The notes beneath the pieces are model-generated. The model worked only from the letters and a program-made list of their open reading frames with translations. It searched no databases and was not told the DNA's origin. The position numbers and the translations under genes were made by a program. From an uncultured Acidobacteriota bacterium (GTDB lineage: Bacteria > Acidobacteriota > UBA6911 > CAINFC01), in NCBI GenBank assembly GCA_903847975.1, contig CAINFC010000252.1, forward strand, positions 186,001-250,000: a DNA stretch of 64,000 nucleotides, read 5' to 3'. Position 1 is the stretch's first letter; the number at the start of each line of letters is the position of its first letter. Below are positions 48,049-55,697 of this stretch, one piece after another.

Positions 48049-50148
48049 TTATTTGGTCCTTACATGCAGCCAGTACACATTGGAGGTCTGGACCTGGTGG
48101 TTGCTGTAGCGATAGGCTAAAAATACGCCCACCAGGTAGTCCCCGGTGACCGGATCAATCGCGTTTCCATTGATGCCCTGCATGGTAATGTAGTTTGCTG
48201 GAATGGTCGCGGTACCCTGGCTGGAATTGGTTATCTGAACGGGTAAAACATCCCCTCCGGTCACGTCGGGATGAAAATTATTCTGCAGGTTGACCTGGTA
48301 GACGGTCGGGAATCCGGAGCCGCTGATCCTCAAATGCTGCTCGCCGCTGTTCAGCATCATCACCGAAGGCTCAATGGAGCTGATGATCAGATCCGGCAAA
48401 GTAGTGCTGGTTGTGGATACCCCCGATGTCGTGGTGGTGGTCGTGGTGGTGGTTACAAACAGGGTGGTGGTGGTCGACCCGATCACCGTGGTTGTGGCGC
48501 TGCAGTTCGAGGTAACCCGGAGATAGATGGAGCCGGAGGTGATGTTGAGCGTTTTGTTTTTCACCTGGACCGCTTTGCTCCCGGCGGTGGCGGTAACCGA
48601 AGCAGGCACCGTGGCGCTCAAATTTCCGGGGCTGTTATAAATGGTCGCCATTTCCACCGTATCGATAAGTACCGCGCTGTCGGCCGTAAACCGCATCCCC
48701 TGCACAATAAAATTCGATATCTGCCCCGAGCCGGGCGCCACGCACTCCGGATAACTGCTGAACACCACAGGGTCGCTGGACGTCAGAGTGGTAGTGGTGC
48801 TGGAACTGGGCACGATGGAAGTGGTGGTAATAATGATAGTGGTCGAAGCGTTGGTGGTAGTGGTGGTCGTCGTTGTCGAAGTCGTGGTGGTTGTCGTTGT
48901 CGTGGTAGTCGTGGTGGGGATTACCTGAAAGGAAAGCGGGCCCGCCTCCGGAAGGGTCATGGAGGCCCCGCCATTATCAGTCACCCGCAGCTGCAGGGTG
49001 TGAAAACCGAGAGAAAGACCGGAATAGCTTACCCAGTTGGAAAAGCCGACATAAGGACACCCGGTGAAATTCCCTTTGGCGGCGCAGACATCCGGCCGCG
49101 AAACGGTGTTCGACAGGGACCCGATGCGGATGCTGTCGATAAAAACATCGATGGAATTCAATCCCGCCGAAGCCAGGGCCCACCCCTGCAGATAGAGGGG
49201 TCCGGAGCTGGGCGCAATACTTCCAGAAGGTATTTCCAGGTTGGCGTAGAGAACCGAGGCCACCTTATTAAAAGAAATCGGTGTGGAAGGAATGTCTTTT
49301 TGCTGTCCGCTGGAAGTCAGAACCCGAGCCTGCAGCGTGTGTTTGCCGACCGAAAGATTGAGCACGTTGATTGTCGCCTGGAATCCGGAATTAAGACAGC
49401 CCGAATAGCCGGGATATGCAGCACAGACGTCGTTTCGGGCTGCACCGTAGGCGGCCATCCCGGAAGGAACGCCGTCCACCAGGATGCTGACGGAAGTAAT
49501 CGGCTTGTTGGACAGAGCCCAGCCCGAGACCGACAGGGAGCTGTAGGTGGAGGCTCCCGGAACGGGAGCCTCCACGCTGCCGTAAATATCTGTGTCCACT
49601 TTGCGAATGATGACCGGAGGGTTGTTGACGTTGTATCCGACCCCGCCGGGAGTAGTCACCCGCAGGTTGACCATATGCTCTCCCACCGGAAGGGATGAAA
49701 TGTCTACGGAGGTGGAAAATCCTACCAGAGGACACTGGGAGTAATTTCCCAATGCCTTGCAGACGTCGTCCCTCCGGACTGTGAGCTGGATATTCGACTT
49801 CATAACCGTGCCGCTGACAATCAGTTCGACCAGATAAGTAGGGGTGGTGGTGTACACCCAGCCATATACGTTGAGCAGGGAGGAAGTAGTCGTTCCGCTG
49901 GTGGGCTGGTCAAGGTACCCGAAGGGAGCAGCGGTTCCAGCTTCGGCAATCACCCTTTCAAGGGAATAGGGGGTTCCCGGATTGATCTCCAGTTTTTCCA
50001 CAGAGGACCTGCCTGTTGGTTCCTGTGCCGGGTCCGTCTGAGCCGGAACGGCGCCAGCCAGCAGCACAGCCCAAAGCAGAAAAAACAGAGTCGGATGGCT
50101 TAAATTTTTTAAATACATAAGCTTATACTTTGATTTCATTACGACCAT
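48049..50148 (-). CDS. Secreted modular protein: three Ig-like modules, Thr-rich linkers, two TIG-like domains
   Basis: 699 residues. After the signal peptide come three ~105-residue modules (~75-180, 185-290, 295-408), each with YGWA/SGWAL, a VDG-like strand, R-x-DVC and a second Cys 9 residues later (Cys130/139, 242/251, 355/364), followed by a GF motif and HTLQ-RV. Residues ~411-458 are almost all Thr. A TIG-like domain, a second Thr linker (~551-583) and a final TIG-like domain complete it. It is a paralog of the next gene upstream. Function is probably adhesion or surface structure, inferred from architecture. Confidence 0.87.
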   Translation of the reverse strand: MVVMKSKYKLMYLKNLSHPTLFFLLWAVLLAGAVPAQTDPAQEPTGRSSVEKLEINPGTPYSLERVIAEAGTAAPFGYLDQPTSGTTTSSLLNVYGWVYTTTPTYLVELIVSGTVMKSNIQLTVRRDDVCKALGNYSQCPLVGFSTSVDISSLPVGEHMVNLRVTTPGGVGYNVNNPPVIIRKVDTDIYGSVEAPVPGASTYSSLSVSGWALSNKPITSVSILVDGVPSGMAAYGAARNDVCAAYPGYSGCLNSGFQATINVLNLSVGKHTLQARVLTSSGQQKDIPSTPISFNKVASVLYANLEIPSGSIAPSSGPLYLQGWALASAGLNSIDVFIDSIRIGSLSNTVSRPDVCAAKGNFTGCPYVGFSNWVSYSGLSLGFHTLQLRVTDNGGASMTLPEAGPLSFQVIPTTTTTTTTTTTTSTTTTTTTTNASTTIIITTTSIVPSSSTTTTLTSSDPVVFSSYPECVAPGSGQISNFIVQGMRFTADSAVLIDTVEMATIYNSPGNLSATVPASVTATAGSKAVQVKNKTLNITSGSIYLRVTSNCSATTTVIGSTTTTLFVTTTTTTTTTSGVSTTSTTLPDLIISSIEPSVMMLNSGEQHLRISGSGFPTVYQVNLQNNFHPDVTGGDVLPVQITNSSQGTATIPANYITMQGINGNAIDPVTGDYLVGVFLAYRYSNHQVQTSNVYWLHVRTK
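48400..48498. repeat. ACN-codon tract encoding a Thr-rich linker
   Basis: Simple-sequence DNA (GTGGTG-type on the plus strand) encoding residues ~551-583 of the modular secreted protein. It is prone to slippage in multiples of three. Confidence 0.75.
48778..48918. repeat. ACN-codon tract encoding the long Thr-rich linker
   Basis: About 140 bp encoding residues ~411-458, of which roughly 35 are Thr, with Ser and Ile interspersed. Codon choice varies among ACC, ACG and ACA, so the protein composition rather than a perfect DNA repeat is maintained. Confidence 0.8.
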
Positions 50149-50338: not shown

Positions 50339-52591
50339 TCAATAGGCGACCACCTGCAGCTGGGCAACCCCAACGGATTCGGTCATATCAAGATTTCGTA
50401 CTTTGACCGGCCGGAAACCGGCTGTGTCCGTGAAAAGAGTCGGTACGGAAGTTGTAACGGAATTGGAGCTGATGTAGTTTGCCTGGAGTTCCATATAGGG
50501 TGCTCCGTCGGATTGTGCTATCAAAACCTTGCAGCCCGGCTGGAAGTTGGCGCCGGAAATATTAAGCGTGAAGGCGGTTCCGATACCCTGCGGCACCTGT
50601 GCCGGCGTGAGCTTGGTGATGACCGGGGCCGTACCGGGGACGGTAATGGTCGTAGTGGAACTGGTGCTGGTGGAAGTTGTCGTGCTTGTCGTCGTGATCC
50701 CCCCGGTGGGAACAACCAGGAAATCAACCGATGGCGATTCTTTTCCGTCCGCATTGCGCACGACGACCGCCCGATATCCGGCAGCCAGGATATCCGCGCC
50801 GTTGATCTGGGCAAACAGAGCCAGCGGGGCAGCCAATAGAGTGGACTTGGCGACTCCGCCGAAGATCACCTGGCTCCCGGAGTTGAATCCCGTTCCATAT
50901 ACCTTGAGTGTGAAGGGTCCGCTGCCGGCATAAACGCTTACCGGATCGATCTGGACAATCTGCAGCTGATCCGGGGAGAGCGTGGTCGTCGTGGACTGGT
51001 CGGGCGTGGTGGTCGTACTGCTGAAGATGGTGGTAGTGGTGATGGTTGCAGGAACATCGATGACGTCGAAGTAGAGTACATTGGATTCCAGGCTTCCGTT
51101 TTTAACCAGGACCGGCTTCGCTCCCACGGTAGCAATATCCCCGGCCTGAATCGTGGCATTGATCGTGCTCCCGTAACCAGGATAGGTGGTGGGCCTTTCC
51201 TGTCCGTTGAAAACCACCACGCTGCCGCTGTTGAATCCGGTTCCCAGAATGCTGAGAATAAAGCCGCTGCCTCCGACCACCGTGGAGTAGGGGCTGAGTT
51301 CATAAATAGCAGGAGTGCCCGAGACCAGCGTGGTCGTGGTCTCATTCGAAGTAGTGGTTGTAGTGAAAAGCGTTGTGGAGCCGGTGGTCGTTGAAGTTGT
51401 AGTCGGAATCAGAGAGGAGACCGTGAACGGGATCGGACCCTGTGCCGGGAGAAGGATGCTGGTACCGTTCACAGCAACGGCCTGAACCCGCAGCTGGTGA
51501 GGCCCCTGCGCCAGGCCGCTATAGTATAAACGGTATTCGAAACCCACGTTAGGGCAGCCTGGAAAGCTGCCTAGGGCAATGCAGACATCCGGGCGAAAGG
51601 CCCCGAGCGAGGCATTAGCGACAACCATATCGTCCACCAGTATTTCCACCCTCGAAATCCCCTGCGGCGAAACCGCCCATCCCGAAATCCAGAGATCCGA
51701 CAGGTCGGAAGGTGGAGGACCCGATGGGGAGTCCAGAACACCGACAACGTAGGAAGAGGGCTTGATGACTGTCCGGGGAACAGCGGGGAACGCAAAGGTC
51801 ACCCCCCCTACATCCCGGGCGCGCATCTGGATGGTATGGGCTCCCGCGGAAAATAAATTGGAATTCAAAGCAAAAAAGAATCCCGAGTTGGCACACCCGC
51901 CAAAACCGGCATACGGAACACACACATCCGGGCGGTAGGCGCCGTAATCCGCATAGCCCACCCCGACACCGTCGACCAGTACCTCCACATTCTGAATAGT
52001 CCGGCTGCCGACCACCCAGCCGGAAAGAGCCAGGGAGCCGACAAAAGACTGCCCTTCCTGCGGTTGCTCGAGATTTCCATTAAACTCCACATTTGCTTTA
52101 ACCACCAGCGGCATATTCAGACTCGTCCCGGAAACGCCTGTCGTATCGGTGACCCGTAAGGCAATACTGTGGGTACCCGGAAGCATAAAACTGGTACTCA
52201 GGCTGGTGCGGAATCCGACATAGGGGCAATTCGGAAAAGTCCCCAGGGCTGCGCAAACGTCCGGGCGCGCAACCGATAAAGGAACATTCTGGACAACCGC
52301 TTCTCCGTCGACCAGAATCGCCAGGTTGGCAATCGGCATATTCCCGACTGCCCAGCCGATAACCTCCATCGATCCGAACACCGAAGATCCGTTGGAAGGC
52401 GTTTCCACGTACCCAAACGGCCGGGTGATTTCCGCTTCAGGCTTGATAAGCCTCAGATAGGAGGTATCTATGGCGGCAGGTTGAATTTCGTGGGTCGGGT
52501 GCACATCGCCGGCAAGTACTGCACTTCCGGATAAAAGCAAAAGGATTCCGGATAAAAGGAAGAGTAAATCGGCATGCTGTGATCGCTGCAT
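50339..52591 (-). CDS. Secreted modular protein: three Ig-like modules and three TIG domains with Thr-rich linkers
   Basis: About 750 residues from the ATG at 52591 (GTG two codons earlier); AGGGGGT precedes it. Signal peptide, then three Ig-like modules with the same DVC-x8-C pattern as the paralog (Cys pairs near 115/124, 226/235, 339/348 counted from the GTG), then IPT/TIG domains beginning at AIYELSPYSTVVGGS, IVQIDPVSVYAGSG and ITKLTPAQVPQG, each preceded by a Thr/Ser linker. There is no anchor motif at the C-terminus. It lies 190 bp upstream of the paralog on the same strand. Confidence 0.88.
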   Translation of the reverse strand: MQRSQHADLLFLLSGILLLLSGSAVLAGDVHPTHEIQPAAIDTSYLRLIKPEAEITRPFGYVETPSNGSSVFGSMEVIGWAVGNMPIANLAILVDGEAVVQNVPLSVARPDVCAALGTFPNCPYVGFRTSLSTSFMLPGTHSIALRVTDTTGVSGTSLNMPLVVKANVEFNGNLEQPQEGQSFVGSLALSGWVVGSRTIQNVEVLVDGVGVGYADYGAYRPDVCVPYAGFGGCANSGFFFALNSNLFSAGAHTIQMRARDVGGVTFAFPAVPRTVIKPSSYVVGVLDSPSGPPPSDLSDLWISGWAVSPQGISRVEILVDDMVVANASLGAFRPDVCIALGSFPGCPNVGFEYRLYYSGLAQGPHQLRVQAVAVNGTSILLPAQGPIPFTVSSLIPTTTSTTTGSTTLFTTTTTSNETTTTLVSGTPAIYELSPYSTVVGGSGFILSILGTGFNSGSVVVFNGQERPTTYPGYGSTINATIQAGDIATVGAKPVLVKNGSLESNVLYFDVIDVPATITTTTIFSSTTTTPDQSTTTTLSPDQLQIVQIDPVSVYAGSGPFTLKVYGTGFNSGSQVIFGGVAKSTLLAAPLALFAQINGADILAAGYRAVVVRNADGKESPSVDFLVVPTGGITTTSTTTSTSTSSTTTITVPGTAPVITKLTPAQVPQGIGTAFTLNISGANFQPGCKVLIAQSDGAPYMELQANYISSNSVTTSVPTLFTDTAGFRPVKVRNLDMTESVGVAQLQVVAY

Positions 52592-52679
52592 ATGCACCCC
52601 CTGCTTATGAAAAGCAGATTTTCCTTATAAATGACATGAAGTTTGAAAGCATAAATACGCTTCATTCAAAGCTATTATA

Positions 52680-52822: not shown

Positions 52823-52865
52823 CTAACCACAGCATTATTATAAGAATAAAAGGAAGAGGTTTTAC

Positions 52866-53615
52866 ATGAAAAAAGCGATATTTCTTTGGGTTGCTTTTTT
52901 AATAATGGCTTCCGCCCAAGTCACGCCAGCCCAAAGGCCGCGGCTCGAAGTGAAGCAGGATGTGGTAAATCTCGGAGAACTTCAGGAGGGAGAAGTAGTC
53001 GAGCACCTGTTTACCTTTACCAATGTGGGTGATGCGACCCTGCAAATTTTCGATACCTTCGCCGATTGAGGGTGCACAGCCGCGGTTGCCAGTTCGGCAA
53101 CCATACCTCCCGGAAAATCGGGAACCGTCAAAGCTTCCATTAACACCAGGGGCCGGGTTGGCGATCTGGAAAAAGGGGTTCATATTGTCAGCAACGATCC
53201 GCTTTCTCCTCAAAGAACACTAAAACTCAGGGCAGTTGTAAAAAATTTTCATCAGCTCGCCGGTTCGAATTTCCGTCCTGAGCTCATCTTTTCCAAGGGT
53301 TGCGGCTCCTGTCATGCCGTTCGGGCCAGTAACCAGTCCGGGGAGAAGTTATTCAAAGCGGTTTGCCAGGTTTGTCACAATCCGGCCAGCACCATAGCAA
53401 AAACGGGAGATAGCTTTCCCAAAAACCGCCAGCCCAACCTGCTTCGGGCAGCCATTGCCAAAGGTGCCACGGGCATGCCCGGCTTTTCCTCTTCCGTAGG
53501 AGGACCACTCAGTAGTGCCCAGATTGAAAGCCTGGTTCAGTACTTTCAACAGAGCACACCTTCTCCGTCCACGGTGGGAGATGCCGCAACGAAAAGCAAA
53601 TCTCCGGTTAAATAA
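52866..53615 (+). CDS. Probable selenoprotein: secreted DUF1573 domain fused to cytochrome c (in-frame TGA = Sec68)
   Basis: A single reading frame of 249 codons with one internal TGA at 53067-53069 (codon 68). Before it: a signal peptide (MKKAIFLWVAFLIMASAQ) and the first half of a DUF1573 domain (NLGELQEGEVVEHLFTFTN). After it, in the same frame: GCTAAVASS, PPGKSG, NTRGRVGDLEKG, SNDPLSPQRTLKL completing DUF1573, then a cytochrome c part with heme motifs CGSCH (Cys146-His150) and CQVCH (Cys167-His171) and a likely axial Met in GMPGF. The TGA stands where the family has the first Cys of CGCT, giving U-G-C. A SECIS-like hairpin follows. It is preceded by a good promoter and GGAAGAGG ribosome site. 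The alternative is a pseudogene with one nonsense mutation. Periplasmic redox chemistry is inferred. Confidence 0.85.
53070..53109 (+). promoter_or_regulatory. Predicted bacterial SECIS element
   Basis: Directly behind the TGA, GGTTGCC (53084-53090) pairs perfectly with GGCAACC (53096-53102) around the loop AGTTC. A lower helix can form between 53068-53073 and 53105-53109 with one bulge. The apical loop lies 21 nt after the TGA and has G as its second base; both fit the bacterial SECIS rules as I know them (loop 16-37 nt after UGA, G in the first two loop positions). The stem start GGTTGC is also that of the E. coli fdhF element. Confidence 0.8.
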
Positions 53616-53681: not shown

Positions 53682-55697
53682 ATGAGTGGTACAAAGGACC
53701 CGTGGGGAAAATACTATTCCTGGTCAGTTCGGATACTGCTTTATTTCCTAATTGTATTTTCCCCCCTGCTGTTTTCTGAGAGGTTTGGCCTCGTCCGCCT
53801 GAAACTGGACTGGGGACTCCCCTATCGGGAAGATATGGTTTATTTTACAGGCCTGCTCCTGCTGGGCCTCGCCTTTTTCCGGTTTTTAGCAAGCCAAACA
53901 TGCCCCCCTTCCCTGGAGACTCTCAAAAATTCCCTAAGAATCCGGCGGAATCCTGTCCTCCTTTTTCTGTTAATCCTTATTCCCTGGCTGATTTGCTGTT
54001 GCTTCTGGAGTCCAGATCCCTTCGCCGGGCGTCAATCGCTTTGGTACTTTTTTGCGTGCGCAGGAATTTTCTGGACCGTCTGGCAGGAAGCAGACTCGCA
54101 TTTTGCCAGGCGGGCAGCCCAGTGCCTGCTTTTGCCGGGGTGGCTGAACGCCGTCTGGACATTCCTCCAGCAGCGCGGATTGGATCCTATTTTCATGACG
54201 GATCGCTGGTTGGAACTGGCGGGAGAACGCATTTTTACCGTGGGCTTTTGCGGAAATCCGAACTTCCTGGCCCCGTTCCTGCTGATCTGCCTGATCGCCT
54301 CCGTCGCGCTGCTGATCACTTCCAGGCGCCTGATAGCCCGGTTGATTTATGCCTGCTCCCTGCCGGTTTTTCTCCTCGCCCTGGTTTTCACACAGACTTT
54401 TTCCGTCTATATCGGTTTTCTTTTCTGTACCCTGCTTACCGTGGTATTTCTTTCCAAGCAGGGAAGCCTGAAGGTCGGACTGCTGATTGCTATTACCGGG
54501 TTGGCTATCTGTATTCTGGGTGTGAGCCTGTATTATACGGATGTTCTCAACGAAGAATACAAAGAGCGCATAGCCGTGCTATACCAGGCGTTTCTGGATC
54601 AGAATTGGGATCGGCTGCTTCACGGAAGAAATTTCGCTTACGCCTTCACCTGGGAAATGATTCTGGATCACCCCTGGAAAGGATTTGGATTGGCTTCATT
54701 TTCCCGTTACAGCCACCGGTATGCATCGGAACTCCCCCAACTGGATTACTTCCAGTACGCAAGAAATTACCGCTTTTACAAAGAAGCACATAACGAACTT
54801 CTTCAAGTCTGGGTGGAAACCGGCCTTCCCGGCCTTCTGCTGTCGCTGGCCGCCCTTTTTCTATGGAGTCGTTTTCTCTGGAAAAAACTCCGCCGGAATT
54901 GCTTCCTCGGACATTCCGATCCACAGGGCGAAAATTCACTCCATCAGAAAAGGGAAGCGATTTGGATGGCCTGGTGGGGAATGGTTGCCGCCAGTCTGGT
55001 TGTGAACAGCCTGTTCAGCTTCCCCTTAAGGCTGCCCCATTTAGCTGTTCTGGCTGTCCTGGGATTCGGTATTTCCCTGCGCATCGCACGGAGCGGGTCT
55101 CCCGACTTGTTGCGGGAACGGAACGGAACGACCTTTTTTTTCACCTCTTTCAAATGGATTGCCGGAGCCGCCGCCGCTTTCGTCCTCTGCTGGCTTGCAT
55201 CTCAAAACATCGATTTAATCCGGTCCCGGACGATCCGGGAGCGGGTCGCACCCCAGGTTCACCTGCTGGCCGGAGAACTCCAGAAAACGGAGGAGCCGAT
55301 TACGCCACGGATCATGGACCTTACCAACCAGATCGCCAAGGATGTAAGCCTCGCCGTTCGGCTGGATCCCTACTCCGCTCAGAATTTTATCCACCAGGGT
55401 CTGGTTGACTTCGCCACCTTCCGGATGCCGTCCGCCATGGCGGCGCTGGAAAAGGCCGAGCGGCTGCAGCCCGGCGCGGAGCTTTACGCCAACATGGCCG
55501 TTTTTTCTCTGCGGATGAAGAGCTATGACAAGGCGGGGGAATACGCCCGCAAGGTCCTGCAGTTCAATCCCTTTCATGAAACGGCCCAGAATGTGATGAA
55601 ATACCTGGGGGAGGTAAGAACCAGAAGCCGCTACCCGGCGCTGATGAAATGGGAATATGTCCCTCTGGCCGAACCGGAAGTCGTGCGGATTCCGTAA
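53682..55697 (+). CDS. O-antigen ligase/polymerase-like membrane protein with C-terminal TPR
   Basis: 671 residues, about twelve membrane helices. The Wzy_C/WaaL-type periplasmic loop carries FAYAFTWEMILDHPWKGFGLASF and EAHNELLQVWVETGLPGLLL, the family's core motifs. The last ~120 residues hold TPR-like repeats (ELYANMAVFSLRMKSYDKAGEYARKVLQ). The family joins glycan chains to lipid A core or to proteins (PglL type). GGA lies 7 nt before the ATG. It is 66 bp behind the selenoprotein gene. Confidence 0.87.
   Translation: MSGTKDPWGKYYSWSVRILLYFLIVFSPLLFSERFGLVRLKLDWGLPYREDMVYFTGLLLLGLAFFRFLASQTCPPSLETLKNSLRIRRNPVLLFLLILIPWLICCCFWSPDPFAGRQSLWYFFACAGIFWTVWQEADSHFARRAAQCLLLPGWLNAVWTFLQQRGLDPIFMTDRWLELAGERIFTVGFCGNPNFLAPFLLICLIASVALLITSRRLIARLIYACSLPVFLLALVFTQTFSVYIGFLFCTLLTVVFLSKQGSLKVGLLIAITGLAICILGVSLYYTDVLNEEYKERIAVLYQAFLDQNWDRLLHGRNFAYAFTWEMILDHPWKGFGLASFSRYSHRYASELPQLDYFQYARNYRFYKEAHNELLQVWVETGLPGLLLSLAALFLWSRFLWKKLRRNCFLGHSDPQGENSLHQKREAIWMAWWGMVAASLVVNSLFSFPLRLPHLAVLAVLGFGISLRIARSGSPDLLRERNGTTFFFTSFKWIAGAAAAFVLCWLASQNIDLIRSRTIRERVAPQVHLLAGELQKTEEPITPRIMDLTNQIAKDVSLAVRLDPYSAQNFIHQGLVDFATFRMPSAMAALEKAERLQPGAELYANMAVFSLRMKSYDKAGEYARKVLQFNPFHETAQNVMKYLGEVRTRSRYPALMKWEYVPLAEPEVVRIP

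Follow-up and report, generated by a model that had tools for sequence, protein, structure and literature searches.

The window, a stretch of 64,000 nucleotides from an uncultured Acidobacteriota bacterium, carries on its plus strand at 52866–53615 a frame for 249 residues that contains a lone in-frame TGA at 53067–53069, that is, at residue 68, and ends with TAA at 53613–53615. Translated through the TGA, residue 68 stands in the context ADUGCTAA. The initial annotation had described one frame with a single TGA and 181 codons beyond it, which translation confirms, and had placed a DUF1573 domain on both sides of the TGA ahead of two CXXCH sites, which Pfam and a reading of the motifs bear out. 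The features of the locus are as follows.

52852–52859, + strand: purine-rich stretch GGAAGAGG resembling a ribosome-binding site, 6 nt 5' of the ATG (putative, from the sequence)
52866–53615, + strand: selenoprotein coding sequence, 249 residues, U at 68, TAA stop (translation; homologues colinear over the full length)
52866–52934, + strand: probable signal peptide, residues 1–23 (hydrophobic N terminus)
52944–53240, + strand: DUF1573 domain, residues 27–125, running across the TGA (Pfam PF07610, 76 bits)
53067–53069, + strand: TGA codon, Sec68, first position of the C/U-G-C motif (translation and comparison of homologues)
53073–53075, + strand: Cys70, likely partner of Sec68 (invariant in nine aligned full-length homologues)
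53084–53102, + strand: bacterial SECIS (bSECIS) hairpin GGUUGCC-AGUUC-GGCAACC (folding; criteria of PMC13188914)
53301–53315, + strand: first CXXCH haem c site, CGSCH, residues 146–150 (sequence; C, C and H invariant in the alignment)
53331–53543, + strand: cytochrome c domain of the cbb3 subunit III type, residues 156–226 (Pfam PF13442, Cytochrome_CBB3, 41 bits; CcoP-like in a PDB search)
53364–53378, + strand: second CXXCH haem c site, CQVCH, residues 167–171 (sequence; C, C and H invariant in the alignment)
53475–53486, + strand: MPGF motif, residues 204–207, probable distal haem Met ligand (invariant in the alignment)

The match to PF07610 (76.2 bits) lies well above the gathering cut-off of 26.1. 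Both CXXCH sites and the MPGF motif are invariant in nine full-length DUF1573–cytochrome homologues, and the presence of CXXCH within a cytochrome c domain matched by PF13442 marks the C-terminal half as a predicted c-type cytochrome, in which the methionine of MPGF is the probable distal haem ligand by comparison with class I cytochromes c. An AlphaFold model, built on an alignment of two rows, reached a pLDDT of only 42 and was set aside.

On the same strand and 66 bases past the selenoprotein stop lies a gene for a Wzy_C O-antigen ligase (53682–55697), with a polysaccharide flippase further downstream, and no terminator-like site was found on the plus strand between the selenoprotein gene and the Wzy_C gene. 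Upstream, on the minus strand, two similar large proteins are encoded in tandem (48049–50148 and 50339–52597), both built of repeated blocks with 'RPDVC' or 'RDDVC' and Thr-rich linkers; Pfam returned no match for the former and a weak match to Big_7 for the latter.

Homologues with TGA or cysteine at the same codon

Given the composition of the window, 181 consecutive open codons would arise by chance with a probability of about 9 × 10−4. Even so, 4 of the 29 TGA-ending open reading frames of at least 200 amino acids have upwards of 250 open codons beyond the stop, GC-rich DNA being often open past TGA stops, and we rejected the open frame as more than weak evidence for selenocysteine. As such long runs are not rare here, we place the weight on homology across the TGA.

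The host genome itself encodes a paralogue, on contig C69, that shares 46% identity over its full length, is colinear across the two domains and has TGC where the window has TGA. Among 396 genomes of the phylum, the full-length DUF1573–cytochrome protein occurs in seven others (G218, G085, G145, G119, G059, G263 and G327), with TGA at the selenocysteine site in G085 and a cysteine codon in the other six. G085 (TGA) and G218 (TGC) belong to one genus and share the same full-length architecture, so that the in-frame TGA is aligned to a homologous cysteine both in the paralogue and within this congeneric pair. Relatives with cysteine or TGA at this codon and with intact flanks on both sides, which the initial annotation had proposed to look for, thus exist in both forms. 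Between G085 and G218, pN/pS is 0.39 before the TGA and 0.26 after it, values that are rough since synonymous sites are near saturation; the latter indicates that the part beyond the TGA is under constraint.

The same position recurs in other DUF1573 genes of the phylum. In 22 of 22 further TGA-bearing DUF1573 genes inspected, the motif begins with the TGA (U-G-C). These comprise 21 phylum matches flagged with one TGA, that of G085 included, and one from a class search, and as they were chosen for bearing a TGA, the result is that the TGA never falls elsewhere in the domain. If the window is counted, TGA occupies the identical motif position in 23 DUF1573 genes, each from a different genome. 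Most UGC-DUF1573 genes are without a cytochrome and encode either a single domain of about 230 residues or longer proteins of about 330–390, and among the 23 only the genes of the window and of G085 combine selenocysteine with a haem domain. UGC-DUF1573 genes are widespread in the host phylum (loci L060–L078 and L102), and standard gene calling would shorten them.

In both G085 and G218 the DUF1573–cytochrome gene lies among genes for Wzt and glycosyltransferases. The Wzy_C protein encoded downstream in the window is distantly alike (25%) to that of a gene beside the one in G085, and the candidate beside the gene in G218 is not alike to it; we take a shared neighbourhood around the Wzy_C O-antigen ligase as a lead only.

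Decoding of the TGA

The host genome (8.13 Mb in 326 contigs, 99% complete with 1.8% contamination) contains a tRNA-Sec (77 bits, anticodon TCA) together with selA (544 bits), selB (344 bits) and selD (358 bits), each above its cut-off, and so holds every component of the machinery for which the initial annotation had suggested a search. The four lie on different contigs with a GC content of 57 to 60%, compared to 56% in the window, and this gives no sign that those contigs are contaminants, though composition cannot settle the matter. Across the phylum, selA is present in 21 of the 22 genomes with the TGA form compared to 16 of the 25 with Cys forms only. It had no match in G218, the Cys sister, whose genome is 77% complete, nor in G193, which carries a TGA-form DUF1573 gene (L072) in a genome estimated to be 99% complete.

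Published criteria for the bSECIS, as set out in PMC13188914, describe a loop of 3–9 nt on a stem of 4–16 bp, a G as the first or second loop nucleotide and a location 16–37 nt past the UGA. The hairpin at 53084–53102 agrees with all of these, having a stem of 7 bp, a loop of 5 nt with G at its second position and a distance of 21 nt from UGA to loop. For a contrast between Sec and Cys genes we scored hairpins by a rule near the published model (loop 3–8 nt, 14–30 nt past the codon). The best hairpin averaged −9.7 kcal/mol after the TGA of 22 Sec genes compared to −2.8 kcal/mol after the TGC or TGT of 30 Cys homologues (Mann–Whitney P = 5 × 10−7, a value that does not refer to independent cases as the genes are related), and shuffled sequences gave means of −4.5 and −3.3, respectively. 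Two of the Sec genes (L070 and L067) had no scoring hairpin or one above −6. About 3% of the TGA triplets in the window are followed by an equally good hairpin. The folding z-scores of the region are modest (−0.9 to −1.7), so it is the difference between Sec and Cys genes that carries the weight. Rfam returned nothing relevant at the TGA; a minus-strand match to S4-Bacteroidia fell below its gathering score and was taken as chance.

When the window and G085 are compared in register, the loop AGUUC is common to both and five pairs are kept, three of them through changes on both sides. In G218 (L026), an AGUUC loop and six of the seven pairs, with one G-A mismatch, are found within the 45 nt that follow the TGC of CGCT. 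To judge from its sequence, this looks like a decaying SECIS relic left by a recent change from Sec to Cys. In the Cys paralogue of the host, the stem is lost.

We conclude that TGA 53067–53069 is very probably read as selenocysteine in a DUF1573–cytochrome c protein, a judgement that takes the reading and the architecture jointly. On the comparative evidence, the UGA is decoded by the host SelA, SelB, SelD and tRNA-Sec, aided by the hairpin at 53084–53102. That selenocysteine replaces the first cysteine of the CGC motif in a protein of this architecture had been the central proposal of the initial annotation, and it found support in every test made; where absent sel genes or broken frames in relatives would have spoken against it, the outcome was in its favour, with 22 other genomes carrying TGA at this codon.

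A true stop, whether in a pseudogene or through an assembly error for TGC or TGT, is conceivable in that TGA is one base from TGC and the genome is a draft of 326 contigs, but it is effectively refuted by 22 further genomes from the phylum in which the identical codon is TGA and the flanks are intact. The purifying constraint beyond the TGA between relatives, a hairpin specific to TGA genes and the complete sel machinery of the host also stand against a stop, which we consider extremely improbable. A different proposal, which adds to selenocysteine insertion instead of competing with it, is that the UGA acts as a selenium-dependent switch, limiting translation to a 67-residue product at low selenium and allowing the full-length cytochrome only when selenium is available, while the Cys paralogue covers the low-selenium case. 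The occurrence of a Cys paralogue of the same architecture in the same genome agrees with such a switch, but there is no sequence evidence for regulation and the scheme would fit any selenoprotein; we think it improbable.

Known relatives and possible function

The initial annotation knew of no described DUF1573 selenoprotein, and in this it was wrong. A 'DUF1573 domain-containing protein, UGC' stands among the bacterial selenoprotein families listed in PMC9312934 and PMC13188914, which trace it to Zhang and Gladyshev (2007) and a symbiont of Olavius algarvensis, and NCBIfam has a related model, NF041425 (OS_HP2 family (seleno)protein). What the listed proteins have in common with the window protein is PF07610, the UGC motif and the placement of selenocysteine at the first of the two CGC cysteines; the review tables name no cytochrome for them, whereas in the window protein a c-type cytochrome with two CXXCH sites follows at the C terminus. 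NF041425 is the best NCBIfam match of the window protein, covering residues 33–126 with the selenocysteine included, but the score of 66.3 bits is below the curated cut-off of 100, so that the protein is not a member by the rule of NCBI, and the model describes one domain of 98 residues only, compared to the two-domain fusion of the window.

The cytochrome half, in turn, has CXXCH, an MPGF-like motif and profile similarity in common with Cytochrome_CBB3 or CcoP-type class I cytochromes c (PDB 6XKX and others), but the window protein is no oxidase subunit, is fused to DUF1573 and has an extra CXXCH ahead. ExtKL (NF040886) and the tetrathionate reductase family octahaem cytochrome (TIGR04315) are c-type cytochromes likewise listed as selenoproteins, but they are other families, for which no DUF1573 is named. 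We found no description of a selenocysteine-containing DUF1573 fused to a c-type cytochrome in the parts of the DUF1573 literature covered here. New, then, is the fusion of Sec-DUF1573 to cytochrome c and not the UGC-DUF1573 selenoprotein itself, and earlier members of that family may include such a fusion unremarked.

As to function, the anatomy of the protein suggests that it would be exported and that Sec68 and Cys70, on an Ig-like DUF1573 domain, would form a redox-active selenol–thiol pair, with a selenenyl-sulfide in the oxidized state; the attached haem domain would pass electrons between this pair and the periplasmic respiratory chain. The substrate may be a thiol, a persulfide, a peroxide or a similar compound. 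We regard the redox pair and its electron exchange with haem as on balance probable. The CGC motif is absent from 2QSV, the closest solved DUF1573-like chain, an absence that points to a motif that forms an active site and that folding can do without. Alternatively, instead of acting as a catalytic redox couple, the two residues could bind a metal (Hg or Cu) or ligate the haem iron. In favour of this, soft metals can be coordinated by C-x-C, no activity has been assigned to DUF1573, and the chain carries two haem sites. However, according to PMC9312934 most selenoproteins are thought to have redox roles, and UGC occurs mostly in DUF1573 proteins that lack haem sites, so haem ligation is not the general role of the motif; we judge a binding site to be rather unlikely. 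A metagenome-assembled Bipolaricaulis genome carries a DUF1573 domain (CGCT) fused to a rhodanese-like domain (L059:5001–5690), followed by an open reading frame with a CPDC motif, and this fusion hints at chemistry with thiols or sulfur.

Taking the redox pair as the preferred reading, we tentatively suggest, as a possibility, that the protein may represent a new kind of periplasmic selenoenzyme, in which Sec-x-Cys on an Ig-like domain would be wired to a haem c of the same chain and thiol or selenol chemistry thereby linked to the respiratory chain. Ordinary gene calling would cut the window selenoprotein, which several independent tests here support, at 67 residues. With this analysis, the range of UGC-DUF1573 selenoproteins covers many genomes of a single phylum, and a DUF1573–cytochrome c fusion is seen in its Sec form, with Sec/Cys pairs inside a single genome as well as across two species of the same genus. 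For DUF1573, a domain of unknown function, the fused haem is a testable electron partner and offers a handle on the role of the CGC/UGC motif.
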